A stretch of DNA of 51,862 bases, taken from NCBI GenBank assembly GCA_009779265.1, contig WREP01000015.1, positions 1 to 51,862 of the forward strand, read 5' to 3'. The position numbers and the translations under genes were made by a program. The notes under the pieces are model-generated. The model saw only the letters and a program-made list of their open reading frames with translations, did not search any database and was not told the DNA's origin. Of the stretch, positions 1,017 through 22,811 are shown piece after piece. The DNA comes from Betaproteobacteria bacterium. Lineage in GTDB: Bacteria > Pseudomonadota > Gammaproteobacteria > Burkholderiales > Rhodocyclaceae. The first letter of the stretch is position 1. Each line of letters opens with the position of its first letter.

Positions 1017-2435
1017 ATGCAAACAAATAGCGAACAACAGCATCTGGTCAACAAGACCTTCGACGAGATCGCCATCGGCGATTCGGCCAGCCTGACCCGC
1101 ACGCTGATGCCGGAAGACGTCAAGTTGTTCGCCGTCCTGACCGGCGAGTTCAACCCTGCCGTCGTCGATCCGCAATACTCACAAAGCGGCATGTTCCGCG
1201 AGGTAATCGCGCATGGCATGTGGAGCAATTCGCTGATCTCGACCGTGCTCGGCACCCAGTTTCCCGGCCCGGGCACCATCCTCATCGACCAGTCGCTGCA
1301 TTTCGCCCGCCCGGTGACCATCGGCGACGTCATCACCATCAACCTCACCGTCAAGCAAAAATTCCAGCACAACCGGCACGTTCTTTTCGATTGTGTCTGC
1401 ACCAACCAGGAAGGTTTGCAGGTGGTCAGCGGCACCGCCGAGGTGCTGGCGCCGAGCGAGAAGGTTTCCTATGTGCGCCAGACGCATATGCCGGAGGTGC
1501 ATGTCGACGACAAGATGGAGCGCTTCAACCAGATGCTGTTGCGGGTCAAGGGCCTGGAACCGATTCCCACCGCGGTCGCGCATCCGTGCGACCACGAATC
1601 GCTGAAAGGCCCGGTCATGGCTTTCCAGGCCGGCATCATCGAGCCCATCCTGGTCGGCCCGGAGAGCAAGATCCGCGCGGTGGCCGAGGAATTCTCGCTC
1701 GATCTGTCCGGCATCCGCATCGTCAACGCCGCGCACAGCCACGACTCGGCGGCCCTGGCGGTATCCCTGGTGCGCGCCGGTGACGCCGAGGCGCTGATGA
1801 AGGGCAGCCTGCATACCGACGAACTGATGGGTGAAGTCATCTCGCGCGCCAACGGGCTGCGCACCAACCGCCGCATCAGTCACGTCTTCCTGATGAGCGT
1901 GCCGACCTACCACCGGCCACTGCTGATTACCGACGCCGCCATCAATATCGCGCCGTCGCTTGAGGAAAAGGTCGACATCATCCAGAACGCCATCGACCTC
2001 GCCCATATCATCGGCATCCCCGAGCCCAAGGTGGCGATCCTCTCGGCGGTCGAAACCGTCAATCCGAAAATCGAATCGACGCTGCACGCCGCCGCCCTGT
2101 GCAAAATGGCCGACCGCGGCCAGATCACGGGCGGCATCCTCGACGGCCCGCTGGCCTTCGACAACGCCGTTTCCATCGTCGCCGCCAAAACCAAGGGCAT
2201 CAAATCGGCGGTCGCCGGCCATGCCGAAATTCTCGTCGTCCCCGACCTCGAATCCGGCAACATGGTGGCCAAGCAACTGGAATATCTCGCCAACGCGCTG
2301 ACCGCCGGCATCGTGCTCGGCACCCGCGTACCCATCGTGCTGACCAGCCGCGCCGACACCGCCGAGACGCGCACCGCCTCCTGCGTCATCGCCGTCCTCA
2401 TCGCCCACGCCAACCGCAAGAAAGCGAGCGCCTGA
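1017..2435 (+). CDS. MaoC-like hydratase / phosphate acetyl(butyryl)transferase fusion
   Basis: A 472-aa protein. Residues ~10-150 form a hot-dog MaoC-like domain (TGEFNPAVVD at 42-51, HGMW at 66-69). Residues ~165-472 form a phosphotransacetylase/phosphotransbutyrylase domain, which swaps acyl-CoA and phosphate to give acyl-phosphate. Fusions of this type are annotated as bifunctional enoyl-CoA hydratase/phosphate acetyltransferase in proteobacteria. I chose ATG 1017 because CGGGAG precedes it and MaoC homology begins there; a longer frame from 933 adds unlikely residues. ackA follows after 2 bp, so the pair probably converts acyl-CoA to acyl-phosphate to free acid plus ATP. Oddity: the usual hydratase dyad D-x-N-P-x-H reads E44-F-N-P-A-V49, so hydratase activity is doubtful. 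Chain-length preference (acetyl, propionyl, butyryl) cannot be read from sequence. Confidence 0.9.
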   Translation: MQTNSEQQHLVNKTFDEIAIGDSASLTRTLMPEDVKLFAVLTGEFNPAVVDPQYSQSGMFREVIAHGMWSNSLISTVLGTQFPGPGTILIDQSLHFARPVTIGDVITINLTVKQKFQHNRHVLFDCVCTNQEGLQVVSGTAEVLAPSEKVSYVRQTHMPEVHVDDKMERFNQMLLRVKGLEPIPTAVAHPCDHESLKGPVMAFQAGIIEPILVGPESKIRAVAEEFSLDLSGIRIVNAAHSHDSAALAVSLVRAGDAEALMKGSLHTDELMGEVISRANGLRTNRRISHVFLMSVPTYHRPLLITDAAINIAPSLEEKVDIIQNAIDLAHIIGIPEPKVAILSAVETVNPKIESTLHAAALCKMADRGQITGGILDGPLAFDNAVSIVAAKTKGIKSAVAGHAEILVVPDLESGNMVAKQLEYLANALTAGIVLGTRVPIVLTSRADTAETRTASCVIAVLIAHANRKKASA

Positions 2436-2437
2436 CC

Positions 2438-3619
2438 ATGCAAGACGCCATCCTGACCATCAATGCCGGATCGTCGTCGATCAAGTTCGCCCTCTTTCCC
2501 CTCGCTCACCCGCTCTCGGCAGAAGCGGAAGTAGCCGGCCAGATCGACGGCATCGGCACCAGCGCCACCCGGCTTGTCGCCAAGGATCGGAGCGGCCAGC
2601 GCATCGCCGATCAGGCCATCGTCGGCGAGGCGGTGCGCCATGATCAGGCTTTCGATGCGCTGCTCAAATGGTTCCTCGCCAGCCAGAGCGGCTGGCGCAT
2701 CGTCGCCGTCGGCCACCGCGTGGTGCATGGCGGCGACCGCTACTCGGCACCCATCGTCATTGACGACACCGTGCTCGGCCATCTGACCAGCTTCATTCCG
2801 CTGGCGCCGCTGCACCAGCCGCACAACGTCACCGGCATCGAGGCGCTGCGCCTTCTGCTACCGCAAGTGCCGCAAGTGGCCTGCTTCGATACCGCCTTCC
2901 ACCGCAGCCAGCCCGAGATCGCCCAACTGTTCGCCCTGCCGCGCGCGCTGACCGCCGAAGGCATCCGCCGCTACGGCTTCCACGGCCTCTCCTACGAATA
3001 CATCGCGCGCGCCTTGCCGCAGCACTCGCACCGCGCCAATGGCCGGGTCGTCGTCGCCCATCTCGGCAACGGCGCCAGCATGGCGGCCATGGTCAAGCGC
3101 AAGTGCGTCGCCACCACCCTCGGCTTCTCCACCATCGACGGTCTGATGATGGGCACCCGCTGCGGCAACATCGACCCCGGCGTGCTACTGCACCTGATGG
3201 AAAGCAAGAATCTGTCGGCCAAGGACATGACCCGCATCCTCTACAAGGAATCGGGCCTGCTCGGCGTTTCCGGCATCAGCCAGGACATGCGCACCCTGCT
3301 CGCCAGCGACAAGCCGGAAGCGGATGAAGCCGTCGAGCTGTTCTGCTACCGCATCGTCCGCGAACTCGGCTCCCTCGTCGCCGCCGCCGGCGGCCTCGAC
3401 GCCCTGGTATTCACCGGCGGCATCGGCGAACATGCGGCCGAAGTCCGTCGGCGCGTCTGCCGCCAATGCGAATGGCTCGGCCTGCGCTTCGATCCCGAAG
3501 CCAACGCCCGCCACGATATCGTCATCAGCGCCGCCGACAGCCAGGTCGACGTGCTGGTGATCCCGACCAACGAAGAATGGATGATGGCGAACCACGCGCA
3601 GACTTTGCTGGCGCTCTGA
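2438..3619 (+). CDS. ackA: Acetate kinase
   Basis: A 393-aa protein, the normal family length. It interconverts acetate + ATP and acetyl phosphate + ADP in the cytosol; propionate is often a second substrate. Visible motifs are NAGSSSIKFALF at the N-terminus, HRVVHGGDRY, FDTAFH, RRYGFHGLSYEYIA, LGNGASM, STIDGLMMGTRCGNIDPG and FTGGIGEHA, all belonging to the acetokinase nucleotide/acetate-binding fold. The start lies 2 bp after the upstream stop, so the two genes are one operon and probably coupled. A strong terminator follows. Confidence 0.95.
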   Translation: MQDAILTINAGSSSIKFALFPLAHPLSAEAEVAGQIDGIGTSATRLVAKDRSGQRIADQAIVGEAVRHDQAFDALLKWFLASQSGWRIVAVGHRVVHGGDRYSAPIVIDDTVLGHLTSFIPLAPLHQPHNVTGIEALRLLLPQVPQVACFDTAFHRSQPEIAQLFALPRALTAEGIRRYGFHGLSYEYIARALPQHSHRANGRVVVAHLGNGASMAAMVKRKCVATTLGFSTIDGLMMGTRCGNIDPGVLLHLMESKNLSAKDMTRILYKESGLLGVSGISQDMRTLLASDKPEADEAVELFCYRIVRELGSLVAAAGGLDALVFTGGIGEHAAEVRRRVCRQCEWLGLRFDPEANARHDIVISAADSQVDVLVIPTNEEWMMANHAQTLLAL

Positions 3620-3640
3620 TTTTTCCAGCCCTTTTCCCAC

Positions 3641-3677
3641 AAGCCCCGCTGGCGAAAACCGGCGGGGCTTTGTTTTT
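3641..3677 (+). terminator. Rho-independent terminator after ackA
   Basis: AAGCCCCGC (3641-3649) pairs perfectly with GCGGGGCTT (3662-3670), followed by TGTTTTTT. It ends the acyl-phosphate operon. Confidence 0.9.
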
Positions 3678-3726
3678 TCGGGCATTTCCCGGTCATGAAA
3701 AAAAATGCCGTCGGCGCAACACACAA

Positions 3727-3776
3727 ACCCTATATTTAGTCAACGGATTGCATAGACCTACTACAGGTAGTAGATT
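3727..3776 (+). promoter_or_regulatory. nrdJ promoter with two candidate NrdR boxes
   Basis: A promoter TTGCAT (3748-3753), 17 bp, TAGATT (3771-3776) precedes nrdJ. Two palindrome-like sites flank it: ACCCTATATTTAGT (3727-3740) and CTACTACAGGTAGTAG (3758-3773). The second is a perfect 6-bp inverted repeat overlapping the spacer and -10. Their centres are about 32 bp apart, three helical turns, which is the usual spacing of paired NrdR boxes upstream of ribonucleotide reductase genes. The match to the NrdR consensus is partial. Confidence 0.5.
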
Positions 3777-3833: not shown

Positions 3834-6716
3834 ATGAGCCCAGTCGCCGAGCAGCTCTCGCTGACCGACATCCCCGCCCCGCCACAATTTGCTCCCTTGC
3901 AGGAACAGGAAATTTCCGGCGAGGTGCTGATCGAAAAATACGCCAAGGGCAAGGAAACCAATGTGCACGACGTGCGCAAGCGCGTCGCCTGGGCGCTGGC
4001 GCAGATCGAGGAGGAAAAGGATAGGGCGCACTGGGAGAACCGCTTTCTGTGGGCGCAGGAAAACGGCTTCATTCCGGCCGGGCGCATCAATTCCGCCGCC
4101 GGCACCGATTTGCAGGCGACGCTGATCAACTGCTTCGTGCAGCCGGTGGGCGACTCCATTGTCGAGAATGTCGATGGCCGTCCCGGCATCTACAACGCGC
4201 TGGCCCAGGCCGCCGAGACGATGCGCCGTGGCGGCGGCGTCGGTTATGACTTCTCGGCCATCCGGCCGCAGGGCGCGCGCGTCAAGGGCACCCAGTCGCG
4301 CGCTTCCGGCCCGGTGTCTTATATGCGCGTTTTCGACCGCTCCTGCGAAACCGTGGAATCGGCGGGCGCCCGGCGCGGCGCGCAGATGGGCGTATTGCGC
4401 TGCGACCATCCCGATATCGAGGATTTCATCCACGCCAAGGATCACGGCGATCTGACCAATTTCAATATTTCCATCGGCGTCACCGATGCCTTCATGGAGG
4501 CCGTGGACGCCGACGATTTCGCCGAACTGGTGCACCGCGCCGAGCCGAATGCCGACATGAAGGGCGAAGGCGCTTACCAGCGCGACGACGGCATGTGGGT
4601 CTATCGCAAGCTGCGCGCCCGCGATCTGTGGGATCAGGTGATGAAATCCACCTACGACCACGCCGAGCCGGGCATTCTCTTCCTCGATCGCATGAACAAG
4701 GACAACAACCTCAATTACTGCGAGGTGATCGAGGCCACCAATCCCTGCGCCGAGCAGCCGCTGCCGCCCTACGGCTGCTGCTGCCTGGGTTCGATCAATC
4801 TGACCCTGTTCATCCGCGATCCCTTCTCCGATAAAGCCGCTTTCGATTTCGACGCCTTCGCCGAGGTGGTGCGCGTTTCCACCCGCATGCTCGACAACGT
4901 GCTCGACACCACCCACTGGCCGCTTGAGCGCCAGGCCCAGGAAGCCGCCAACAAGCGCCGCGTCGGCCTCGGCTTTACCGGCCTGGGCGACGCCCTGGCC
5001 ATGCTGCGGCTGCGCTACGACAAACCGGAAGCCCGCGCCATGGCCGCGCGCATCAGCGAATTCATGCGCGACACCGCCTACCTGTACTCGGTCGAAATGG
5101 CTCAGGAGCGCGGCGCTTTTCCGCTCTTCAATGCCGAGTTGTACCTCTCCGGCGGCAATTTCGCCTCGCGCCTGCCGGCCGAGATCAAGGCCGAAATCCG
5201 CACGCACGGCCTGCGTAATTCACACCTGCTTTCCATCGCGCCGACCGGCACCATCTCGCTGGCCTTCGCCGACAACGCCTCGAACGGCATCGAGCCGCCC
5301 TTCTCCTGGACCTACAGCCGCAAGAAGCGCATGCCGGACGGCACGATCAAGGAATATTCGGTCGAAGACTACGCCTGGCGCCTGTACCGGCACCACGGCG
5401 GCGATATCGACAAGCTGCCCGACTATTTCGTCACGGCCCTGGAAATTTCGGCCAAGGCCCATGCCGATATGGTCGCCGCCGTCGCCCCGTACATCGACAC
5501 CTCGATTTCGAAAACGGTCAATGTGCCGGGCGACTACCCCTACGAAGATTTCCAGGATCTCTACATGCAAGCCTGGAAGGCCGGCCTCAAGGGCCTGGCC
5601 ACCTACCGTCCGAACAGCGTACTCGGCGCGGTGCTCTCCGTCGAGCCGGCCAAGGAAGCCGACGACGCCAAGGCGCCGCAGGATTTCGTCTCCGACGCCA
5701 ACCGCCGCCTGTCGATCAAGAACCTGCCGGCGCCGGTGCTCGCCAGCCTGCGCTGGCCGGGCCGCCCGAGCCTGCCGGAAGGCAACCTGTGCTGGACCTA
5801 CATGCTCGACTCGCCGATCGGCCGCTTCGCCCTCTTCGTCGGCCATGTCGAACCGGAAGGCCGCGCCTGGCCGTTCGAAGTCTGGGCCAACGGCCCGGCT
5901 GAACCGCGCGGCCTCGGCGCCGTCGCCAAGACGCTGTCCATGGACATGCGCGCCAACGACCACGGCTGGCTGGAAATGAAGCTCGACGCCCTGGCCAAGA
6001 CGCCGGGCGATTCCTTCGACATGCCCATGCCGCCGCATGGCGAAAGAAAGCGCATGCCCTCCGTCGTCTCGGCCATGGCCCAGGTCATCCGCTGGCGCGT
6101 CGAACAACTCGGCGCGCTCGCCAACGGCGGCCCGACGCCGGTCAAGGACGCCCTGTTCAGCGCCAAGGAGCCGAAAACCGGCACCGACGGCACGCTTTCG
6201 TGGACGGTCGATGTCAACAACGCCTCGACCGGCGAGGATTTCGTCCTCGGCCTCAAGGAAATCACCCTGCCCGACGGCGTCACCCGCCCCTACTCCATGT
6301 GGCTCGCCGGCAACTACCCGCGCGCCCTCGACGGCCTGTGCAAGCTGCTCTCGCTCGACATGCGCGTCATCGACCCGGCCTGGATCGGCATGAAACTCAG
6401 GAAACTGCTCGACTACTCCGAGCCGTTCGGCGATTTCATGGCCTTCGTCCCCGGCTCGCGCAAGCAGCAGACCTGGCCGTCGACGGTCGCCTACATCGCC
6501 CAGTTGATGATCCACCGCTACGCCATGCTCGGCATCCTCGACGAAGCCGGCTTCCCCTTGCAGCAAATGGGCATCCTCGAAGCCCCGGAAAGCAGCAGCA
6601 ACAAGGTGCTGCCAACCCAGGGCAAGCTGTGCGGCGAATGCGGCAACCACACCATGATCCGCAAGGACGGCTGCGACTTCTGCACCGCCTGCGGCGCGGT
6701 AGGGACTTGCGGCTGA
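3834..6716 (+). CDS. nrdJ: Adenosylcobalamin-dependent ribonucleotide reductase (class II)
   Basis: A 960-aa protein that reduces ribonucleotides to deoxyribonucleotides using coenzyme B12, with or without oxygen. ATG 3834 follows AGGAGCAAGAA. Seen motifs are [10 protein letters not shown] and LINCFVQP near residue 100 (a reductant cysteine), [27 protein letters not shown] at 303-308 (finger-loop cysteine, C305, the expected thiyl site), [14 protein letters not shown] and IAPTGTISL. After about residue 620 there are two TSCPD-type modules with the repeated pattern around [15 protein letters not shown]. The C-terminus carries CGECGNH and [14 protein letters not shown], a cysteine tail expected to shuttle electrons from thioredoxin. 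Length and domain order fit the long class II family. A class I enzyme may exist elsewhere in the genome. Confidence 0.96.
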
Positions 6717-6720
6717 CGGT

Positions 6721-6752
6721 CAAAAAACGGGCAACCACAAGGGGTTGCCCGT
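6721..6752 (-). terminator. Terminator after the CsgG-like gene
   Basis: ACGGGCAACC (6727-6736) pairs with GGTTGCCCGT (6743-6752). The T-run lies on the minus strand (six As at 6722-6727), so it serves the minus-strand gene ending at 6778. It may also limit read-through from nrdJ. Confidence 0.8.
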
Positions 6753-6777
6753 ACAGTTTGCCCGGCTGGTTACGGGC

Positions 6778-7608
6778 TTACTTACCCACCTTGAGCTGAC
6801 CGCCGGTGCCCAGGCCGCCCTTGACCTCTTGCGCCTTGTAATTGCGCAGCGAGATCACCATGTTGTTGTAGGCATCCATGAAGGCCGCGACCGTGGCCTT
6901 GCCTTCGGGCGTGCGCGAGAAGCCGCTCAGACCGCCGGCCGCCTTGCTACCGAAAGCGCCCAGGGCCGCACCGAAATTGGTTGACGTGGAGTTGCCCTCG
7001 GAAATCGCGATCTGCACGCCCGAACGGATATCGAACATGGTCAAGGTCACCACGGAAGCCTTGCTTTCCATGGCGCCGCCAAGCACCGCGCCCGCTTTGC
7101 CAAACAGGCCGCCGACGCCAGCGGCCATGCCGCCGGTAGTGTCGTTAATGATGATGGCCGGTTCCATATAGTAATCAGCCGCCACGCGCTGACCCTTTTG
7201 CTGCTTCGACCCGGCGCGGAATTCGCCCGAATTGCGCTGCTTGTCCGTGATGGCGGAAATCTTGCTCTCCGTGCGGGCGCCGCCGATGGAGGTGATGACA
7301 AAGCAGTTGGATTGCTGCACGGCCAGGCGGATCAGCGGCTCGATGGTGGTAACGCCTGTCGTTTTGCCAAAGCTGCCATACCACTCCTTGTCGCGGCCAT
7401 CGTCCACGGCCAGGGTGCCGAGGGGTGCGTCGCAACGCTCCAGGTTCGCATTGGCGTTCACGCTGGTGGCGCCGCCCGCAGCGCCGGTGGCGGCCGTGGG
7501 CGAAGTGCCGGTACTGACATTGCCGCCGCCGGTGGTCACGCAACCGGCCAGAACCAGGGAGGCCGCCAGGACAGTAAGATGCAAGCTGGTTTTCTTGAAC
7601 ATGGGCAT
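6778..7608 (-). CDS. CsgG/HfaB-like outer-membrane lipoprotein
   Basis: A 276-aa protein. It begins MPMFKK, followed by a lipoprotein signal with lipobox LAGC (LVLAGCVTTGG). The body has features of the CsgG/HfaB fold: AADYYMEPAIII, TLTMFDIRSGVQIAISEG and TPEGKATVAAFMDAYNNM. That family forms curli-type secretion pores or related envelope assemblies; no curli genes are near, so the substrate is unknown. A Gly/Ala-rich stretch (MAAGVGGLFGKAGAVLGGAM) lies mid-protein. I chose ATG 7608 because AAGGA sits 6 bp upstream; ATG 7602 is an alternative. It lies 35 bp downstream of the Sel1 lipoprotein gene, so the two are probably co-transcribed. Confidence 0.75.
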   Translation of the reverse strand: MPMFKKTSLHLTVLAASLVLAGCVTTGGGNVSTGTSPTAATGAAGGATSVNANANLERCDAPLGTLAVDDGRDKEWYGSFGKTTGVTTIEPLIRLAVQQSNCFVITSIGGARTESKISAITDKQRNSGEFRAGSKQQKGQRVAADYYMEPAIIINDTTGGMAAGVGGLFGKAGAVLGGAMESKASVVTLTMFDIRSGVQIAISEGNSTSTNFGAALGAFGSKAAGGLSGFSRTPEGKATVAAFMDAYNNMVISLRNYKAQEVKGGLGTGGQLKVGK

Positions 7609-7643
7609 GTTTTCCTTAGGGTTGATTTCGGAGATTCTGGCAA

Positions 7644-8282
7644 TCAGCGCGACCGCGACCTGCCTGATTGCTGACGCCAGCCTGAAGACGACCAGGCATA
7701 GTTGTAGGGAAGGGTAGGAACCCAAGCAGTATTGTTCGCCATGGTCTCGTAGGTTTCCTTGAGATCCTTGCGCTCCTGGTATTTGTCCTGAGCCTCACGC
7801 TTGGCTGCCTGCGCCTGCGGCAGCAGGCGTTTGGCCTCCTCGTTGCCCTTGGCGGCGGCACGCGAAAGCCAGGCTTCTGCCTCCGCCGGATCGGAGCCCA
7901 TTTCCTCGAAGCCCAGGAGATACAGGCGACCCAAGGCGAACTGGGCAGCGCCATCACCGCGGTCACCGGCCTTGCGCATCCATTCGATAGCTTGGTAGGT
8001 ATTGCGCTGCACGCCGTCGCCGCGCAGCAGACGCAAGCCGACATCATAGGCAGCCTTGGGGTTGGTTTCCGCCATGGCGATCAATTCAGCCATGCGTCGC
8101 TCCGCTTCCGGATCACTCGGCTCGTCTTGGAAAGTAGTGATATTGCTCGGCTGATCCGCGCACTGATTGCCGCTGCACACGCGCACCGTCGGTCGGGGCG
8201 TAAGTTGCTCCTCCGGCGTCTGCGCCGCGCAACCCACCAATCCCAATGCTGCCAGGGACAGACTGATAAGAGTAAGACGCAT
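7644..8282 (-). CDS. Sel1-repeat lipoprotein
   Basis: A 212-aa protein with a signal peptide and lipobox (LVGC, AALGLVGCAAQ). Residues ~60-150 hold at least two Sel1/TPR-like repeats: AAYDVGLRLLRGDGVQRN followed by AIEWMRKAGDRGDGAAQFALGRLYLLG, and AEAWLSRAAAKGNEEAKRLL. Such repeats mediate protein contacts at the envelope. The C-terminus is charged, then aromatic (WVPTLPYNYAWSSSGW). GGGGGAG precedes ATG 8282. It is first in a two-gene unit with the CsgG-like lipoprotein, which suggests a joint envelope role; this is inference. Confidence 0.8.
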   Translation of the reverse strand: MRLTLISLSLAALGLVGCAAQTPEEQLTPRPTVRVCSGNQCADQPSNITTFQDEPSDPEAERRMAELIAMAETNPKAAYDVGLRLLRGDGVQRNTYQAIEWMRKAGDRGDGAAQFALGRLYLLGFEEMGSDPAEAEAWLSRAAAKGNEEAKRLLPQAQAAKREAQDKYQERKDLKETYETMANNTAWVPTLPYNYAWSSSGWRQQSGRSRSR

Positions 8283-8407
8283 GAACTCCCCCGGAATTTA
8301 TGATGAATTGGAAGTGTATCAGGTTTGATTTTTTGTCCAATCCCCCAGAAATCATCCGGATACTCCAAAAATCCTCCCGCTGCGGGAATAACGGATGGGG
8401 CGAATAA

Positions 8408-8459: not shown

Positions 8460-9641
8460 TCAGGCGCGTTCGAGGATTACCGCGATGCCTTGGCCGCCGC
8501 CGATGCACATGGTCACCAGGGCGTATTTGCCGGCGACGCGCTCCAGTTCGTAGAGGGCCTTGGTGGCGATGAAGGCGCCGGAGCAGCCGACCGGGTGACC
8601 GAGGGCGATGGCGCCGCCGTTCGGGTTGGTTTTGACCGGGTCGAGGCCAAGCCCTCTGGAAACGGCGATGGCCTGGGCGGCGAAGGCTTCATTGGATTCG
8701 ATGACATCCATCTGGTCGAGCGTCAGGCCGGCTTTTTTGAGCGCCAGCTTAGAGGCCGGGATCGGGCCTTCGCCCATGACATCGTTCGGCACGCCGGCGA
8801 CGGCATAGCTGACGAGGCGGGCGCGGGCCTTGTAGCCAGCCTTGGCGGCGACATCGGCGGCGGCGAGGACGAAGAAGGCAGCGCCGTCGTTGATGCCGGA
8901 AGCGTTGCCGGCGGTAACCGTGCCGTCTTTCTTGAAGGCCGGTTTCATTTTGGCCAGCGTTTCCATGGTGGTGCCGCGCTTGAGATGCTCGTCGGTGTCG
9001 AAGATGACTTCGCCCTTCCGGGTCTGCTTGACGATGGGCACGATTTGCGACTTGAAGCGGCCGGCGTCGATGGCCGCCGCGGCGCGGGTTTGCGATTCGA
9101 CGGCGCAGGCATCCTGATCCTCGCGGCTGATGTTCCACTTGACCGCCAGGTTTTCGGCGGTAAGGCCCATGTGGCCAACGCCAAAGGGGTCGGTCAGGAC
9201 GGAAACCATCATGTCGATGGCCTTGGTATCGCCCATGCGTGCGCCGGAGCGCAGGGCCGGCAGCATGTAACCGCCGCGCGACATGACTTCGACGCCGCCG
9301 CCGATGCCGTAGTCGCAATCGCCGAGCATGATCTGCTGGGCAGTGGTGACGATGCCCTGGAGGCCGGAGGAACACAGGCGGTTGACCTGCATGGCGATGG
9401 AATCCATTGGCAGCCCGGCCTGGATCGAAGCGACGCGCGGCACATAGGGGTAACGCGAATCGGTGGGAATGCAGTTGCCCACGGTGACATAGTTGATTTG
9501 CTGCGGATCGACGCCGGAACGGGCGATGGATTCCTTCATCACGATACCGGCCAGTTCCGCCGGCTCGATATCGGCCAAGGAACCGCCAAACGCGCCGATG
9601 GGGGAACGAACCGCGCTCAGAACAACAACCTCTCTGCTCAT
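8460..9641 (-). CDS. Acetyl-CoA C-acetyltransferase (PhaA/BktB-type thiolase)
   Basis: A 393-aa biosynthetic-type thiolase that condenses two acyl-CoA units into 3-ketoacyl-CoA, or the reverse. The nucleophilic cysteine is in NRLCSSGLQ (about residue 89), the histidine in GGAIALGHPVGCSGA and the second cysteine in MCIGGGQGIA. The length equals PhaA/BktB. The N-terminus MSREVVVLSAVRSPIGAFGG resembles BktB-like enzymes, which accept C3-C5 units. ATG 9641 is preceded by AGGAGTGTGAA. No phaB or phaC is adjacent, so a role in polyhydroxyalkanoate synthesis versus acyl-CoA degradation cannot be decided here. The next gene upstream is the CbiB-like protein, 26 bp away. Confidence 0.93.
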   Translation of the reverse strand: MSREVVVLSAVRSPIGAFGGSLADIEPAELAGIVMKESIARSGVDPQQINYVTVGNCIPTDSRYPYVPRVASIQAGLPMDSIAMQVNRLCSSGLQGIVTTAQQIMLGDCDYGIGGGVEVMSRGGYMLPALRSGARMGDTKAIDMMVSVLTDPFGVGHMGLTAENLAVKWNISREDQDACAVESQTRAAAAIDAGRFKSQIVPIVKQTRKGEVIFDTDEHLKRGTTMETLAKMKPAFKKDGTVTAGNASGINDGAAFFVLAAADVAAKAGYKARARLVSYAVAGVPNDVMGEGPIPASKLALKKAGLTLDQMDVIESNEAFAAQAIAVSRGLGLDPVKTNPNGGAIALGHPVGCSGAFIATKALYELERVAGKYALVTMCIGGGQGIAVILERA

Positions 9642-9667
9642 TTCACACTCCTTGGAAGAATTATTTA

Positions 9668-10597
9668 TCAGCCCGCCAACCGGGCAAGCTCCAACAGGAA
9701 CAGCACCAACATCCACAACACCGTGGCTCGCCAGACGAGCGCAACGGCGCTTTGCATGAAATCGACATCGGGCGGATCGCCCGCCCCCAACTCGGCGCCA
9801 CCGGCAACTTCCACCCCCGTCAGTGGCGACCACTGCAAGCGGACGCCCAGCGCGCCCGCGCCGCTGGCGAGAACGATGCCCAAGTCGCGGTCGGGACAAT
9901 CGGCCGCTTGCGTCCGCCAGCAATGAACCGCATCCTCGAAATTGCCGACAATGGCAAAGGCCGCCGCCGTGGCGCGCGAGGGCAACCAGTCGATGACAGC
10001 GAAAAGCCGCCGGGCGAAGCGGGAAAAATCGTCGTCCGCCGCGCCGCCAGCCTCGCTCCCGCCCCAACGCTGGCGCAGGATGGCGGCAATGCGGTAGAGC
10101 GCCGCGCCGCACGGGCCGGGCAGGATGACGAAGCAAAGCAACACAGCGAAAACATGGCGATGCGCGGCGGCCAGCCCCTCTTCGATGGCCCGGCGGGCGA
10201 TTTCCTCGGCGCTGAGGTCGGCGGTCGGCTGATCGAGCCACTCGCCGAGTAGTTCGCGGGCACGCGGCAAATCGTCGAGGCGCAAGGCCACCTGAATTTC
10301 GCTGTAATGATGGCTGAACTGACGAAAACCCATGGTCAGATAGAGCGCGCCAACATTGAGAATCCAGGCCAGGAGCGGACTCAGGCGATAGAGGAAGGCA
10401 TAGACAGCGGCCAGTAGCAAGACCGGCGGCAGGAGCGCGAGGCACCAGGCGGCCACGCCGTGCTGGCGGTCGCCGGCATTGCAGCGCGATTCGATGAAAT
10501 CCGCCCAGGCGGCGAGCGGTTCGGCAACCAGCCGGCGGTAATTGAGGGATTGCCACTGCTCGATGAGGAAAACCGCGATCAGCGAGAGAAAACTCAT
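9668..10597 (-). CDS. CobD/CbiB-family membrane protein
   Basis: A 309-aa protein with membrane segments near residues 1-15, 52-90, 150-172 and at the C-terminus (ATVLWMLVLFLLELARL). The layout, including FRQFSHHYSEIQVALRLDDLPRAR and FARRLFAVIDWLPSRATAAAFAIVGNF, matches the divergent CobD/CbiB family of betaproteobacteria. True CbiB makes adenosylcobinamide-phosphate in B12 synthesis; the divergent branch may instead resemble AmpE, and its role is unproven. It lies 36 bp downstream of the Nudix gene and is probably co-transcribed with it. Confidence 0.75.
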   Translation of the reverse strand: MSFLSLIAVFLIEQWQSLNYRRLVAEPLAAWADFIESRCNAGDRQHGVAAWCLALLPPVLLLAAVYAFLYRLSPLLAWILNVGALYLTMGFRQFSHHYSEIQVALRLDDLPRARELLGEWLDQPTADLSAEEIARRAIEEGLAAAHRHVFAVLLCFVILPGPCGAALYRIAAILRQRWGGSEAGGAADDDFSRFARRLFAVIDWLPSRATAAAFAIVGNFEDAVHCWRTQAADCPDRDLGIVLASGAGALGVRLQWSPLTGVEVAGGAELGAGDPPDVDFMQSAVALVWRATVLWMLVLFLLELARLAG

Positions 10598-10633
10598 GGG
10601 GCGAAATGCCGTGGGCCGGCTTATTGTCTTGTG

Positions 10634-11245
10634 CTAAAGCGCCACCATACCACAAGGCGCCGAGGCTTGGAGACGCTCGCTCAGGGAGCGGATCATGCCG
10701 GCGGTCGCGCCCCAGATGAAATAGTCGCCATAGGGCATCGCGTAATAGCGGCGCAGGGAGCCCCGGTAGTGCATCTCGTGCTGCTGGTGATTGCCCGGGT
10801 CGAGCAAAAAATCCAGCGGCACCTCGAAGACTTCGGCCACTTCAAAGGGATCGGGCCGCAGCTCGAAAGGCGGCTCGACCAGGGCCACCACCGGCGTAAC
10901 TCTAAAGCCGGTGCCGGTACGATATTCCGGCAAAAAGCCGAGAATCTGGACATGCTCGCGGGCGAGGCCGATCTCCTCCTCGGTTTCACGCAGGGCGGTG
11001 TGCACCGGCGAGGCATCCCCTGCCTCGACCCGGCCACCGGGAAAGCTGATCTGACCGGCATGATCGCGCAGATGAGCGGTGCGCTGGGTGAGTAGCACCG
11101 TCGCCCGCGCCGGATGGCGGACAATGGGAAAAAGCACGGCAGCCGGCGTCAAGGCTTCATGCAACGCGCCATCCTCAGTGACGAAAGCGCCGGTCAACGG
11201 GTGCGGCAAGAGGCTGGCCTTCAGGCGTTGCAGGTCGAAACTCAT
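10634..11245 (-). CDS. Nudix CoA pyrophosphatase (NudL-like)
   Basis: A 203-aa protein. The Nudix box is complete: GGRVEAGDASPVHTALRETEEEIGL (given here by its key residues G...E...REtEEE.GL). It is preceded by LLTQRTAHLRDHAGQISFPG, the extra signature of CoA pyrophosphatases that split CoA into phosphopantetheine and 3',5'-ADP. The C-terminal YFIWGATAGMIRSL is also typical. The final ~10 residues are unremarkable. It heads the run of minus-strand genes toward the thiolase. Confidence 0.85.
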   Translation of the reverse strand: MSFDLQRLKASLLPHPLTGAFVTEDGALHEALTPAAVLFPIVRHPARATVLLTQRTAHLRDHAGQISFPGGRVEAGDASPVHTALRETEEEIGLAREHVQILGFLPEYRTGTGFRVTPVVALVEPPFELRPDPFEVAEVFEVPLDFLLDPGNHQQHEMHYRGSLRRYYAMPYGDYFIWGATAGMIRSLSERLQASAPCGMVAL

Positions 11246-11277
11246 GCGCGGGCTGGTGAATACTCGATTCCGCGTTC

Positions 11278-11940
11278 CTAGAACCGCTGGCGCAGCGTCA
11301 TGGTCTGACCATCGCGCTGCATTTCCATGCGATTGAGGAAAGACATGCCGAGCAGGGCATACGGCATGTCGGCCCGATTGATCAGCGCATCGACCTGATG
11401 CAGCGTCACGCCGCCGATGCTGACGCTGTCGAGCTTGATCTTGCTCACCTCGGCCTGGCCGTTGGCTGTCTGCGCATAACCCTTCTGGCCGCGGTTGAAA
11501 TCCAGGCCGAGGCGGCGGGCATCGCTGGCGCCGAGGGAAATCATGGAGGCGCCGGTATCGACGATGAAGCGCAGCGAGGTGCCGTTGACCGTCCCGGTGG
11601 TGTAGAAATGCCCCCGCGCATCGGCGGTCAGCACGATCTTGCCGGAACCATCCGCCGCCGACGCCCCGACTGCGTGCTGGCCGACGCGCAGCGGCCGCTT
11701 GCGACCGCCGATCTCGACAATCACCTGCTCGTCCTGAATCGCCAGCAGCTTGACACCGCCGAGCGATTCGCCGACGCGCAAGGCCTCCGGCTGGCCGCCG
11801 TTGACGATCAGCATCGCCTTGCTGCCGACGATGCCGGCCAGGCCGACATCCTGCGCCGCCAGCGGCGGCGCCGCGCCCAACAGCCAGAGCGACAGCAGCG
11901 CCAGATAAACGCCCCGACCAACGCCCCGCAGCGGCAGCAT
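11278..11940 (-). CDS. Retropepsin-like aspartic protease (TIGR02281 type)
   Basis: A 220-aa protein with an N-terminal hydrophobic signal/anchor (VYLALLSLWLLGAAPPLAA). The C-terminal ~120 residues form a clan AA aspartic protease with the single catalytic motif FIVDTGASMISLGASDARRL and the hydrophobic ALLGMSFLNRM near the end; such enzymes act as homodimers. Substrate is unknown, probably periplasmic. I prefer ATG 11940 (preceded by AAGGGATAGC) to the in-frame ATG at 11955, which lacks a good ribosome site. Confidence 0.8.
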   Translation of the reverse strand: MLPLRGVGRGVYLALLSLWLLGAAPPLAAQDVGLAGIVGSKAMLIVNGGQPEALRVGESLGGVKLLAIQDEQVIVEIGGRKRPLRVGQHAVGASAADGSGKIVLTADARGHFYTTGTVNGTSLRFIVDTGASMISLGASDARRLGLDFNRGQKGYAQTANGQAEVSKIKLDSVSIGGVTLHQVDALINRADMPYALLGMSFLNRMEMQRDGQTMTLRQRF

Positions 11941-17952: not shown

Positions 17953-17975
17953 GACTGTCGCGAAAGCCCGATACT

Positions 17976-18153
17976 CCCCTCCCCCCCTCGCGGGGGAGGG
18001 GCCGGGTGAGAGGGGGAGGCGGCAAGTGAGACGGCGGCTGGTTCGTCCATCGCGCTTGCGTACGCCGCTTCGCGGGCAGGAGTGACGGGGAACGCCCCTT
18101 TCTCCGGTGAACCTCCCCCTCTCCCCAACCCCTCCCCCGCGAGGGGGGAGGGG
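17976..18153. repeat. Inverted pair of C-rich/G-rich repeats
   Basis: Left arm (17976-18019) and right arm (18112-18153) are near-perfect inverted copies of a roughly 43-bp unit that is itself a hairpin, CCCCCTCGCGGGGG at its core. The unit resembles the blocks at 12124-12240 and a partial version near 765-785. About 90 bp of unrelated sequence lies between the arms, with no ORF I can support. Confidence 0.8.
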
Positions 18154-18197
18154 CTTCAAGGGCGCGGATTGAGCCTTTTGCGACAACCTCCAATAGC

Positions 18198-18346
18198 GTA
18201 GGGTGGATAAGGCCGAAGGCCGCCATCCGCCGGTCGTATCCTCCGATGCCAAGCATCGCAAATTGAAAATTGGTGACGCTTCGCGTCGAAGGAGAACGGC
18301 GGATTGCGCCGCTTCGCGGCTTATCCGCCCTTGGGCCTGGGCTACG
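18198..18346. repeat. GTAGGGTGGATAAG-type intergenic repeat
   Basis: GTAGGGTGGATAAGGCCG... at the left and ...GGCTTATCCGCCCTTGGGCC at the right are imperfect inverted ends around GCATCCGCC-like blocks. Repeats of this wording are widespread between genes of beta- and gammaproteobacteria. With the preceding element it fills the gene-free gap 17953-18414. Confidence 0.6.
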
Positions 18347-18414
18347 CTTGCTGTCAGAGCCGCGCTCTATACTGATGGGTCGATTACAAACTGTTGCCTG
18401 AAAAGTTCCCCGCC

Positions 18415-18681
18415 ATGTCCCTTCACGCCATTCACCTGCCCCGCTTTCCCGAATGCTGGAAAAGTTGCGGCGCCTGTGCCGCCGGTACTGTTTTCATTCT
18501 CGAACTGTCGATACAGGTCGGTGACTGGGTAGAGCGTGACGAAACAATCTTGACGCTGGAGACCGGCAAGGTGGCGCTGGACATTCCTTCGCCGTGGTCC
18601 GGGCGGATTGTCGAAGTGCATGTCACAGCGGGCGACACAGTCGATGAGGGAGCGCTACTGGCAATGCTGGCGACAGACTGA
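18415..18681 (+). CDS. Stand-alone lipoyl/biotinyl-domain protein
   Basis: An 88-aa protein. Residues ~24-88 form a single lipoyl/biotinyl attachment domain: VGDWVERDETILTLETGKVAL (key part ETGKVALDIPSP) carries the modifiable lysine K52, and VHVTAGDTVDEGALLAML completes the barrel. A cysteine-rich lead-in FPECWKSCGAC (C14, C18, C21) precedes it. Full-size E2 subunits or carboxylases are far longer, so this is a free carrier or a truncated relative. I chose ATG 18415; a TTG at 18394 is in frame. No 2-oxoacid dehydrogenase, glycine-cleavage or carboxylase gene is adjacent, so the partner is unknown. Confidence 0.7.
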   Translation: MSLHAIHLPRFPECWKSCGACAAGTVFILELSIQVGDWVERDETILTLETGKVALDIPSPWSGRIVEVHVTAGDTVDEGALLAMLATD

Positions 18682-18686
18682 GTGCA

Positions 18687-18760
18687 TAGGCCGGGATGGA
18701 AGAAAGTGGAATCCCAGCTTCAATCGCTGGAATTGCGCTGCGCTTCATTCCAGCCTACAG
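18687..18760. repeat. Imperfect inverted repeat (GTAGGCTGGAATG type)
   Basis: AGGCCGGGATGGAAGAAAGTG... and ...GCGCTTCATTCCAGCCTAC are imperfect inverted ends. This word family recurs between genes in many proteobacteria. It separates the lipoyl gene from the integron cassettes. Confidence 0.55.
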
Positions 18761-18784
18761 CCCTGATGGTTGGCTGTGTGCGCT

Positions 18785-18845
18785 GCCTAACGGCAAACTT
18801 AACCGGCTTGCCGTAGGCAAGTCCGGGTTGAGCGAAAGGTTAGGC
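18785..18845 (-). other. attC recombination site 1 (integron cassette end)
   Basis: The 61-bp site is bounded by GCCTAAC (18785-18791) and GTTAGGC (18839-18845), perfect matches to RYYYAAC and GTTRRRY. The interior is an imperfect palindrome, with CGGCTTGCC facing GGCAAGTCCG and CTTAACC facing GGGTTGAG. Two unpaired bases lie in only one arm, as required for bottom-strand recognition by an integron integrase. The side of the extra bases orients the cassette on the minus strand, and the site starts 31 bp after the stop of the minus-strand gene at 18877. Found by eye. Confidence 0.85.
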
Positions 18846-18876
18846 CACTATAGCAATATGCGAAGGGAAACATCAC

Positions 18877-19953
18877 TCAACGCCTCCCGACTTCAGAAAC
18901 TATAAAGTTCCGCAAAATTGCTTGGGATGCCAAGCCAACCTCTCGATCCGACGATTCAAATTGAATGTCATTCGAAATTTGACCAACTCGATATTTGACT
19001 TTCTTAAATAACTCTTGCTGTGGTTTAATAAATTCTGCGCGCGCCTGAGGAATGCAAATTAAGTCCCTATGATCATAGTATGCCTTACCTCGCAAACCGC
19101 TTTTAATCGCCTCTTGCATACATAATTCCGACAAATTACTAATAATTCCCGACGAATTGGCATTACTCTTTTCCGGTTCGGCAAGATAGGCTATTAATTT
19201 TTCTAGAATTATTTGCAAAACAAGCGATTCAATCTCATTGGCTCTACGATTCACGAACCTTTCCCCGTCAACTGCGCAAAAAGCATTAATTTCGACTGCC
19301 TTATCACATTTAAGGCTATCGTTATAGGCTAGTCTAGCCGCATGCCGCAGGATATCTGCCTTGCAATAAACTTCCTTGATATCTCCGCACTCGGTATCTC
19401 CAGTGTGTTCGCTGACAAACTCTACGATACTGGCTGTGGCGGATTGCCGCGCCATACGACCGTGTAGTGCAGCAACAGGCAACGATGCGGTTTGTTGGGG
19501 CATCGATATATCCGGTTCTGACGCTACTGATTCCTCATTTAGGGGTGATGCAGGTTGATTTTTCAATACTAGGGTACTGGGTGACTTGAGAGCAGAGTTA
19601 ACACTATTCTGTACTGTAGTTCCGCTGACACTACTTTCGAGTACTTCTTGTTCTTTTCTCGTAGTAGCATCACCTCTCACGGCAGCTTCATTGGGAGCGT
19701 CAAAAGCAATATACACACAAAAAACCAAAAATAGCACAAGCAAAACCAACGAAAACTTAAATACTCGCCAAAACCAATGCAAAGTATTTTTGCCGCGCCT
19801 ATGCCTAAATTTTATATCCGAAATATCGTCAAGCTTGTCATCGTTCAGCTTAGTTGTTGCGCGCTCAATTGAAGAGCGAGGGATAGTTGCGCCTGTCTGT
19901 ATTGCATTGCCCACCTGTAGATATTTTTTTCTTAGTTCGTCACTCACCTTCAC
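18877..19953 (-). CDS. Unknown single-pass membrane protein, cassette gene B
   Basis: I do not recognise this 358-aa protein. Residues 1-55 are cytoplasmic and end in the basic RHRRGKN. Residues 66-84 are one membrane helix, positive-inside rule giving N-in. Residues 90-180 are a Ser/Thr-rich linker. Residues 185-358 form a domain with six cysteines (189, 197, 216, 226, 278, 300), compatible with disulfides outside the inner membrane. The start is GTG at 19953, overlapping the stop of gene A (GTGA); a second GTG at 19947 has GGGAGA 6 bp upstream and may be the true start. The N-terminus VSDELRKKYLQVG echoes that of gene A. Base use is AT-rich, unlike the flanking genes. It is the second gene of a two-gene integron cassette. 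Confidence 0.8.
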   Translation of the reverse strand: MKVSDELRKKYLQVGNAIQTGATIPRSSIERATTKLNDDKLDDISDIKFRHRRGKNTLHWFWRVFKFSLVLLVLFLVFCVYIAFDAPNEAAVRGDATTRKEQEVLESSVSGTTVQNSVNSALKSPSTLVLKNQPASPLNEESVASEPDISMPQQTASLPVAALHGRMARQSATASIVEFVSEHTGDTECGDIKEVYCKADILRHAARLAYNDSLKCDKAVEINAFCAVDGERFVNRRANEIESLVLQIILEKLIAYLAEPEKSNANSSGIISNLSELCMQEAIKSGLRGKAYYDHRDLICIPQARAEFIKPQQELFKKVKYRVGQISNDIQFESSDREVGLASQAILRNFIVSEVGRR

Positions 19954-20939
19954 TCTCCCATATTTAGAAGCTCGAATGCAGTGTCTTCATTCAGGTCGGG
20001 CAACTCCCAATCCTGCAATCCTGTCGCCAATGCGTCAATTGCATCAATTGACGTTTCGACAATCTGAGTTGTTGCTGCTATATTCAACAAAGCAATTTCT
20101 TCACGCAGATTGTTTTTCATAATTTCAAGATCACTCGCAAATCCCTTTACCTTTCTAGCACTACCCACTTGCCCTTCTATCCTCTGCATCATTTCATTCC
20201 ATTTTTTCTCTACTTTGACTCGAAACTTTTCTCTTTGGCTTATTTTTCCCAAGGTTGAGTCACGAAGTTTCTCATTATTGGATGAATTTACTTTTCTTTT
20301 TGTGATTTCATCATTATTGCGCCCATTCTCTATATCATTTATCACCTCATCACGAATATGTTTCATGTCTTCTATGCCGGCAAGCCCGAATTTAGATAGA
20401 TATTCAAACACAAAAGATACGAGCTCATATGCAATGATTGAACTTCTTAAATAGAGGTTAGTTTTTTCCATGCGTTTTACGCCGCTATCTGCCTGGCCTA
20501 GCGCAACAAGTTCTTTACCAATTTCTGCATTTGCGCGTTTGAAAATTTCCACAACAGCAGAGAGCGTTGCATATGATAAATTTATTTTCTTTTGCGCACT
20601 TGCCAATTCCAAAAGACGCTGGCGATCAATAGCTTGAAGCGCCGCACCGACCTTGCTAATTGCCTCGTCTGTTTTTTGGATTTTATGCTCTTCGATGAAA
20701 TATGCGGTTGCTAGGATAATTTTCCCAACGTTCTCAGATCGCTCTCGAATGGCCACCTTAATTGTTTGGTGAATATCACGATTAGCAATAAGAGAGGTGG
20801 AGAGCAAGTCAACGTTTTTGATTGGATTTTTTTGCCCATATGCGACCATATCAGTCGCCTGGCACTCGAATTCATCCTTGATCAACATTGCACCCTCATT
20901 CAAAAACTTGTCGCGTAAATCATTCGATACGTTTTCCAT
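19950..20939 (-). CDS. Unknown helical protein, cassette gene A
   Basis: I do not recognise this 329-aa protein. It is soluble, strongly charged and predicted mostly alpha-helical, with heptad-like stretches around RQRLLELASAQKKINLSYA and the C-terminal third. A hydrophobic stretch SIIAYELVSFVFEYLSKFG lies mid-protein; it is too polar for a clear membrane helix. The N-terminus NVSNDLRDKFLNEG resembles VSDELRKKYLQVG of gene B, which suggests a shared docking element. ATG 20939 follows GGAAGAGTGGATT and is preferred to the in-frame start at 20981. It overlaps gene B by 4 bp, so the two are translationally coupled. Its AT-rich composition and flanking attC sites mark horizontal acquisition. Confidence 0.8.
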   Translation of the reverse strand: MENVSNDLRDKFLNEGAMLIKDEFECQATDMVAYGQKNPIKNVDLLSTSLIANRDIHQTIKVAIRERSENVGKIILATAYFIEEHKIQKTDEAISKVGAALQAIDRQRLLELASAQKKINLSYATLSAVVEIFKRANAEIGKELVALGQADSGVKRMEKTNLYLRSSIIAYELVSFVFEYLSKFGLAGIEDMKHIRDEVINDIENGRNNDEITKRKVNSSNNEKLRDSTLGKISQREKFRVKVEKKWNEMMQRIEGQVGSARKVKGFASDLEIMKNNLREEIALLNIAATTQIVETSIDAIDALATGLQDWELPDLNEDTAFELLNMGE

Positions 20940-20992
20940 AATCCACTCTTCCTTATGCTCGGCGAATAAAACAAATCTCAATATAACCAGAA

Positions 20993-20998
20993 ATTATA
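20993..20998 (-). promoter_or_regulatory. Possible -10 element at the head of the two-gene cassette
   Basis: TATAAT on the minus strand, 54 bp before the gene A start and just inside the cassette boundary. A weak GTTAGC (21021-21016) sits 17 bp upstream, within attC 2. A cassette-borne promoter would allow expression far from an integron Pc promoter. Confidence 0.4.
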
Positions 20999-21002
20999 GT
21001 TA

Positions 21003-21059
21003 ATATAACGCTCAAGCTAACCGGCGGCGAAGCCGTCCGGGTTGAGCGCAATGTTAGAC
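21003..21059 (-). other. attC recombination site 2
   Basis: The 57-bp site runs from ATATAAC (21003-21009, one mismatch to RYYYAAC) to GTTAGAC (21053-21059, perfect). The interior pairs CTAACCGGCGGC with GCCGTCCGGGTTGAG around GAA, with the same two extra bases in the same arm as attC 1, so both sites point the same way. The two sites share the CCGGGTTGAGCG block, typical of one host's cassette family. It follows the 51-aa gene on the minus strand. Confidence 0.85.
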
Positions 21060-21066
21060 AGAAATC

Positions 21067-21222
21067 TCATGAAATAAAAATTTTTAATTTGCTTCTAGCG
21101 ACGGCGATGACGACAAAAAATAAAATAATAAAAATGTGCTCCCAACGGAACCAACGCAACCAAACAAAAATCATCAATAGGCAAAAAATTATTATTAACG
21201 GGAGGTAAACTAAGGTTTGCAT
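21067..21222 (-). CDS. 51-aa membrane microprotein, cassette gene
   Basis: The frame reads MQTLVYLPLIIIFCLLMIFV, then WLRWFRWEHI, then FIILFFVVIAVARSK, ending KIFIS. This gives two hydrophobic helices (about 4-21 and 29-43) joined by a Trp/Arg-rich turn, and a basic C-terminus. It starts ATG 21222, 10 bp after an AAGAAG stretch, and its stop is 8 bp before attC 2, a usual gene-to-attC distance. I do not know a homologue. Holin-like, toxin-like or small accessory proteins share this build. Confidence 0.6.
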   Translation of the reverse strand: MQTLVYLPLIIIFCLLMIFVWLRWFRWEHIFIILFFVVIAVARSKLKIFIS

Positions 21223-21237
21223 ATATCTTCTTGAGTG

Positions 21238-21244
21238 GCCTAAC
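21238..21244 (-). other. Outer integron core site next to leuA
   Basis: GTTAGGC on the minus strand, 22 bp after the leuA stop, is a perfect GTTRRRY core with no attC hairpin around it. It would be the upstream boundary of the first cassette (about 21009-21244), either a former attI/attC junction or a secondary integration point. Confidence 0.6.
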
Positions 21245-21266
21245 TGGAATTAGACGACAAAGCCGC

Positions 21267-22811
21267 TCAAATATCCCCCTGCGCCCGCACCTTATCCAGC
21301 GAGGAATGCAGCTTGTTCAGCGCATTGGTATAGGAGCGGGCCGAGGCGATGACGATGTCGGTATCGGCGCCATTGCCGTTGACGATGCGCTTGTTCTTGG
21401 CCAGCCGCGTCGTTACCTCGCCCTGGGCGTCGGTGCCGGTGGTGATGGCGTTGACCGAATAAAGCAGCAGTTCGGCGCCGCTGCCGACGATGTTTTCGAT
21501 GGCCTTGAAGACGGCGTCCACCGGCCCGCCGCCGACGGCTTGCGCCTCGCGCTCGTCGCCGCCGACACTGAGGATGACGGTGGCGCGCGGCATTTCGCCG
21601 GTTTCCGAGCAGACGTGCGAATAGAGGAGCTTGTAGTGCTCCTGCTCCGGCGTCACGACTTCATCGGAAGCCAGGGCGTGCAGATCCTCGTCGAAAATTT
21701 CGTGTTTCCGGTCGGCCAGTTCCTTGAAACGGGCGAAGGCGGCGTTCAGCGCCTCGTCGCTGCCCAATTCGATGCCCAGTTCGGCAAGGCGGGTCTTGAA
21801 GGCATTGCGCCCGGAATGCTTGCCCAGCACCAGCTTGTTCTGTGCCCAGCCGACATCCTGGGCGCGCATGATTTCGTAGGTTTCGCGGTGCTTGAGCACG
21901 CCGTCCTGGTGGATGCCGGCTTCGTGGGCGAAGGCATTGGCGCCGACCACGGCCTTGTTCGGCTGCACCGGGTAGCCGGTGATTTGCGATATCAGCTTGG
22001 AAGCCGGGACGATCTGCGTCGTGTCGATGCGCGTCTCGACCGGGAAAATGTCCGGGCGCGTGCGCACGGCCATGACGATTTCTTCCAGGGAGGCGTTGCC
22101 GGCCCGTTCGCCGAGGCCATTGATGGTGCATTCGACCTGGCGCGCACCGGCCAGCACAGCGGCCAGCGAGTTGGCGACGGCCAGCCCGAGGTCGTTGTGG
22201 CAATGCACCGACCACACCACCTTGTCGGCATTGGGCACGCGCTCGATCACCCGGCGCAGGTTTTCGGCGTACTGGAAGGGAATGGCGTAGCCGACCGTGT
22301 CCGGCACATTGATGGTCGTGGCGCCGGCCTTGATGACCGCCTCGAAGACGCGGCACAGAAAGTCGATGTCGGAGCGCCCGGCGTCCTCGGCCGAAAACTC
22401 GACATCGTCGGTAAACTGCCGCGCCCAGCCGACGGACTTGACCGCCTGCTCGACGACCTGATCGGGCGTCATGCGCAGCTTTTTCTCCATGTGGATCGGC
22501 GAGGTGGCGATGAAGGTATGGATGCGGCCCGAGGCCGCCGGCTTGATGGCTTCGCCGGAGCGCCGGATATCCGCCTCGTTGGCGCGCGCCAGCGAGCAGA
22601 CTGTGGATTCGCGGATAACCTGGGCAATGGCCTGGATGGCCTCGAAATCGCCGGGCGAGGCGGCGGCGAAACCGGCCTCGATGACGTCGACGCGCATTTT
22701 CTCCAGTTGCCGGGCGACGCGGATTTTTTCTTCCTTGGTCATCGAGGCGCCCGGGCTCTGTTCGCCGTCGCGCAGGGTCGTATCGAAAATGACGAGATGT
22801 TGCTTGCTCAT
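21267..22811 (-). CDS. leuA: 2-isopropylmalate synthase
   Basis: A 514-aa enzyme making 2-isopropylmalate from acetyl-CoA and 2-oxoisovalerate, the first step of leucine synthesis. [45 protein letters not shown] and [13 protein letters not shown] mark the HMGL-like TIM barrel with its metal-binding His residues. The C-terminal ~120 residues (from about 390) form the leucine-sensing dimer domain. ATG 22811 follows GGAGCGCCCC. It is last in the ilvI-ilvH-ilvC-pssA-leuA run, 19 bp after pssA. The integron cassettes begin just past its stop, which they leave intact. Confidence 0.96.

Follow-up and report, generated by a model that had tools for sequence, protein, structure and literature searches.

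The window (the whole stretch of DNA analysed, 51 862 nucleotides) contains, between a DUF2069 gene and leuA, a region (positions 17953–21266) that related genomes lack at this place. A search of 15 same-genus relatives gave 13 loci (L013–L025; two relatives gave no usable locus, and a contig end truncates L014). The DUF2069 gene and leuA are direct neighbours in 12 of these 13 loci, in which the end of leuA is reached 53–127 bases past the DUF2069 match. Region 17953–21266 is therefore most simply explained as an insertion. Just past the DUF2069 gene, the inserted DNA carries a pair of GC-rich 30-nt inverted repeats (17977–18006 and 18124–18153) resembling a small repeat element. A 95-aa ORF with a biotin/lipoyl domain (18394–18681, plus strand) is also located within the insert, on the strand opposite to the cassettes described below.

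The part of the insert adjoining leuA is a two-cassette array, read on the minus strand. It starts with an attI-like stub (21238–21258), which lies 8 bases past the leuA stop codon. The stub is identical at 19 of 21 positions (BLAST match of 20 bases) to a sequence located beside an integrase-like gene on another contig (C12) of the same genome. The first, short cassette contains a 51-aa hydrophobic ORF (21067–21222), for which no Pfam match was obtained at E values up to 0.1. This cassette ends with a 57-bp attC site (21003–21059) with a degenerate right core (GTTATAT), which was spotted by eye and by folding; a scan with the attC core consensus listed only the second, 61-bp attC (18785–18845), whose cores pair perfectly. 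Between the two attC cores, as delimited by the inferred recombination points, lies a two-gene cassette (18791–21008) carrying the genes designated A and B. This is a genuine integron gene cassette: (i) it has a 3′ attC with paired cores, (ii) a further site is present on its far side and (iii) it is accessory with respect to related genomes. The G+C content of genes A (0.40) and B (0.43) is lower than that of the window (0.62), and the disparity is larger at third codon positions (0.39 and 0.38, respectively, compared to 0.85 in the adjoining leuA).

As defined in PMC8618304, CALINs are attC clusters lacking an integrase. The window array is similar in that it has two attC sites and no match to the integron integrase model (TIGR02249) on its contig (C15). 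It differs from a CALIN as defined there in that it opens with an attI-like stub resembling the sequence beside the C12 integrase-like gene. Elsewhere in the same genome, TIGR02249 gave matches on contigs C12, C2 and C61, all below the cut-off; since this model also responds in 14 of 14 control genomes, the C2 and C61 matches say little and only that on C12 (229 bits against a cut-off of 265, model positions 160–315 only) is telling. The C12 locus (L048; C12:48000–59775) appears to be an integron of the host itself, with an integrase-like ORF (7554–8300), whose match is confined to the C-terminal half of the family model, and five attC-like sites of 61–71 bp after it (8665–11660).

As an earlier note on this DNA had described, the cassette carries two genes. 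They are adjacent minus-strand ORFs placed between two attC sites (all coordinates given for A and B refer to the minus strand). Gene A (19950–20939) encodes a protein of 329 aa. Hydropathy analysis agrees with the solubility claimed in the same note, as nowhere does the profile reach the level of a membrane segment (highest Kyte-Doolittle mean over 19 residues, 1.24). The protein has only two prolines (residues 39 and 314), and its composition suggests a helical fold. Gene B (18877–19947) encodes a protein of 356 aa with a GTG start assigned by homology, and its predicted layout, in which a linker and a six-cysteine domain follow a cytoplasmic tail and a single membrane helix, fits the stub, helix and external domain described earlier. 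The helix (residues 62–82; 19702–19764) is preceded by basic residues and reaches a Kyte-Doolittle mean of 2.75 at residue 62, compared to 1.31 for the next best stretch elsewhere. One of the seven cysteines of B (residue 77) lies within the helix. The remaining six (residues 187, 195, 214, 224, 276 and 298) are outside it and delimit the outer domain (residues 187–298; 19054–19389); they are invariant in all five aligned B sequences and probably form disulphides. Two further claims, concerning the gene junction and the promoter, fared less well. The proposed 4-bp overlap exists only if B starts at an alternative GTG at 19953 (the TGA stop codon of A occupies 19952–19950). The three B homologues possessing an N-terminus (P0011–P0013) all point to the GTG at 19947 in the alignment, and with this start the two genes are 2 bases apart. 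The suggestion that the cassette has its own promoter was not borne out: a scan of positions 18700–21300 found three promoter-like sites against 5.1 expected, none of them upstream of A on its strand; visual inspection detected only a lone TATAAT.

A protein search identified eight homologues of A besides the query, i.e. two entries from Paraburkholderia sp. SG-MS1, one from Paraburkholderia sp. MM5477-R1 (P0003) and five others. In SG-MS1, a homolog of A (60% identical to window A) and a homolog of B are adjacent and separated by 3 bases. SG-MS1 B (464 aa) shows 28% identity over residues 1–324 of window B (pairwise E value of 1e-41), in an alignment spanning the N-terminal motif described below, the membrane helix and the six-cysteine domain. 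Another pair was found in genome G1303, of the same class as the window (locus L034), where a 145-aa ORF lies 14 bases ahead of the A homologue (46% identical to window A), so that the two genes stand in the opposite order to those of the window. In the product of this ORF, a low-complexity linker connects an N-terminal motif to a single membrane helix at the C-terminus, and there is no outer domain; the motif is N-terminal only if an internal ATG at codon 22 (21 codons in) is the start, which shortens the protein to 124 aa. The pairing of A and B, of which only three cases are known, is well supported. The earlier note would have abandoned its proposal had the genes proved to occur independently and to belong to known unrelated families; they are instead paired in two other genomes and no family was matched above cut-off.

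A direct search with window B retrieved only itself. The view of B as an orphan was nevertheless rejected, since the neighbour of SG-MS1 A together with a profile search gave four relatives. The profile search itself contributed P0012–P0014. Its scoring was confined to the 8000 candidates with the most words in common, and SG-MS1 B was not among its matches, so that a miss in it does not amount to absence. DUF4087 (PF13316) forms the C-terminal domain of the B proteins P0011–P0013 (above cut-off, E values from 3.3e-12 to 8.7e-14); this domain was not matched in window B (0 Pfam families) or in the G1303 membrane protein. P0014, which has no N-terminus, decides nothing in this respect, as its sequence stops just before DUF4087 would begin. 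No paper naming the domain was found in the literature searched.

The outer part of the B partner thus varies from none (G1303) through a six-cysteine domain (window) to a six-cysteine domain plus DUF4087 (SG-MS1). The best-kept segment between window B and SG-MS1 B is the N-terminal motif (10 identities in residues 1–16, i.e. 10/16), compared to 57/164 in the six-cysteine region and 8/36 and 14/70 in the linkers. A similar motif is located at the N-terminus of A (residues 4–21; 20877–20930), its counterpart in B occupying residues 1–18 (19894–19947). In A it is the start of a longer conserved stretch, and in B it precedes an unconserved linker. In P0003, as annotated, 14 residues lie ahead of it.

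The similarity of the two N-termini was examined by a shuffle test and by HMM searches. In 26 of 32 pairs (8 A × 4 B), the observed match was reached by at most 5 of 2000 shuffles, the six exceptions involving P0008 (2 pairs) and P0010 (4 pairs). When the B tail was scanned along whole A proteins, the A N-terminus was the best place in 29 of the 32 pairs. The N-terminal resemblance pointed out in the earlier note is accordingly beyond chance in most pairs and persists in most homologues. To avoid circularity, an HMM built from eight A N-termini only (P0010 left out; window, SG-MS1 and G1303 A in the training set) was run against 2533 stop-to-stop frames, and ranked the three motif-bearing membrane genes 4–6, behind three A genes. 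The E values of these membrane genes were weak (0.0047, 0.18 and 0.36), the next match having an E value of 8.3. The converse search with a B-only HMM recovered SG-MS1 A (0.53), the G1303 membrane protein (1.8) and window A (4.1, barely above the noise at 4.5), and G1303 A was absent from the matches at E values up to 50. A joint motif HMM, which contains the sequences it finds, matched only A and B in the window's own genome and in SG-MS1 (next match, E value of 1.0). Comparison of the whole A and B family profiles gave no match at the N-termini.

The motif of the G1303 membrane protein was similar to seven of the eight N-termini tested (at most 5 of 2000 shuffles), the exception being that of its own A. 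It is nearer to window A (score 45, 0/2000 shuffles) than to its own partner (score 27, 47/2000), which is not what tight co-evolution would predict.

Taken together, A and B look like a real membrane-linked module, so far uncharacterised. Since A and an A-like N-terminus of its partner are kept while gene order, linker and outer domain change, the shared N-terminus would serve to hold A and B together at the membrane. In the mechanism that we favour, to which we assign a probability of roughly 45%, A and B are parts of one membrane-tethered module. A would be a cytoplasmic helical scaffold or effector and B its inner-membrane anchor. The first 16–18 residues of B would imitate the start of the first helix of A and dock on A, possibly replacing that helix within an A oligomer. 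The single B helix would cross the membrane, a flexible linker would reach into the periplasm, and the disulphide-bonded outer domain would there read or hold something, adding a specific input or attachment. The outer domain may be exchangeable, with the motif, the membrane helix and A forming a constant core. Three elements of this mechanism are proposed from sequence: that the motif mediates binding, that A is recruited to the membrane and that the outer domain has a sensing role. Of the interpretation put forward earlier, the shared docking element is the better half, as the joint motif HMM found only A and B above noise in the window's own genome and in SG-MS1; that the motif mediates binding is a supposition.

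Alternatively, the shared N-terminus may be a tag by which a third partner encoded elsewhere, such as a protease, a chaperone or a polar landmark, recognises both proteins, in which case A and B would not touch each other through it. Its location at or near the N-terminus of both proteins is consistent with such a tag. So is the fact that, as for a short recognition element, it is followed by an unconserved linker in B and stands at the head of a longer conserved stretch in A. We regard this explanation as unlikely, because no third motif protein was found in the window's own genome or in SG-MS1, and the host partner would presumably need to exist in all three hosts. Docking of A and B fits better than a tag placed on many clients, since the joint motif model finds only these two proteins above noise in the two genomes.

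Many proteins encoded by integron cassettes are uncharacterised, and the A/B pair offers a way into mechanism: the two proteins, unrelated apart from a terminal peptide that they have in common, have stayed paired in three hosts despite changes in gene order and outer domain. If the docking model is true, it would define a docking principle and give two unannotated protein families a testable role.

Single-pass proteins with a cytoplasmic tail, a linker and a periplasmic domain include the RodZ-like and TonB-like proteins. B is like them in layout only; Pfam, NCBIfam and PDB sequence searches found no sequence relation. A different comparison is offered by two-ORF integron cassettes, some of which are toxin-antitoxin systems according to a figure legend of PMC8618304. 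The likeness consists in two genes between two attC sites; the differences are that neither A nor B matches a toxin or antitoxin family (Pfam, NCBIfam, PHROGs and PADLOC searched) and that B is membrane-anchored.

Neither protein could be assigned to a family. No Pfam or NCBIfam match exceeded the cut-off for A or B, comparison with PHROGs gave weak matches only (E values of 0.1 or more; e.g. 0.23 for B and the phage family “Zot-like toxin”), and no PADLOC family was matched, such hits as there were being sub-threshold and to unrelated families. Searches of PDB sequences with the A and B profiles yielded no credible match (best E value of 0.049, a spectrin helix). The idea that A is a relative of toxic-anion-resistance (TelA) proteins was dropped, as no such Pfam match was present in the A relatives scanned. 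SG-MS1 B matched GltJ (E value of 5.4e-5) and PADLOC PD-T4-6 (E value of 2.5e-6); both matches were set aside because they cover an Ala/Pro-rich part of the protein. One of two glycine-rich proteins encoded beside the G1303 pair (L045, 2264–3360, minus strand) matched PADLOC LeoBC (E value of 5.6e-7) over a glycine-rich stretch. The cassette, designated a candidate two-component system in the earlier note, is not one in the usual sense, as neither A nor B matched a kinase or receiver family in Pfam at E values up to 10. The more general idea of a pair acting from cytoplasm to envelope fits the predicted topology.

The pair is rare and patchily distributed, as judged by counts of genomes matched by the A and B profiles. 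With the genome carrying the window counted where included, A was detected in 2 of 369 genomes of the class (again 2 of 369 with a wider profile), 1 of 399 of the order and 1 of 398 of the phylum. Within the genus of SG-MS1 only SG-MS1 itself was positive (1 of 144), and 8 of 42 genomes were positive in the family of the second class match. B was found in 1 of 60 relatives, namely the genome carrying the window. This sporadic occurrence of A, the mobile cassette and a base composition unlike that of the neighbouring genes would suit a defence or abortive-infection system, with A as the effector and phage being sensed either by A or by the outer domain. We nevertheless consider such a role rather improbable. 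Besides the lack of family matches described above, no A was found in phage, plasmid or viral contig collections, nor were A relatives in the phage and plasmid sets tried, and the LeoBC and PD-T4-6 matches fall in glycine-rich and Ala/Pro-rich stretches. The phage-defence half of the earlier functional hypothesis thus gains no support from A and B or from their homologues and neighbours.

In the family of 42 genomes, the A profile matched 11 places. At six of them (L033, L036, L037, L039, L040 and L042) the A relative has a hydrophobic, signal-peptide-like N-terminus. Two others (L034, of the G1303 pair, and L043) are cytosolic, one (L038) is cut at a contig edge, and L041 and L044 are fragments of one gene. 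No motif-bearing gene was seen near the six signal-peptide-like forms (about 1.5 kb of flanking DNA; the whole 15-kb contig for L033) or near the cytosolic L043, where 179 bases of contig follow the gene. A can therefore exist without B.

These forms bring in a wider version of the docking model, possible in our view, though with the odds against it. The pair would belong to a modular membrane system in which a cytosolic helical scaffold is captured at the inner membrane by partners copying the start of its first helix, freely exchanged periplasmic domains set the response, and an exported form of the scaffold exists as well. The same relatives bear on the idea of a device for envelope organisation, with A a purely structural scaffold, B its anchor and no signalling. 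The low-complexity linkers of B point in this direction, as do the signal-peptide-like A relatives at six loci, three of which (L033, L036 and L037) lie near FGE-type proteins (by Pfam match in L033, by eye in L036 and L037). This neighbourhood may be due to chance, and we judge the purely structural reading improbable. That the cassette encodes a toxin-antitoxin or effector-immunity system, in which B would be a membrane toxin or A its neutraliser, is highly improbable, since, despite the close spacing of the genes and the precedent of two-ORF cassettes mentioned above, both proteins exceed the usual size of toxin-antitoxin proteins and lack above-cut-off matches to known families, and in G1303 A is kept although its membrane partner has no outer domain.

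Inspection of the loci of A relatives yielded several additional observations. At L041 (1468–2456, minus strand; genome G1308), the A relative is split between two frames, possibly representing a pseudogene or an assembly error. Locus L033 contains an overlapping gene pair (2140–3743), the first gene coding for a protein that looks exported and the second for a small membrane protein with one helix; its consideration as another A/B pair (2140–3231 and 3228–3743) was rejected after profile comparison, which revealed no relation to A or B. Adjoining the signal-peptide form of A at this locus, genes for an FGE-sulfatase-domain protein, a bAvd-like protein and a reverse transcriptase are arranged in a row (5724–8112) and resemble a diversity-generating retroelement.
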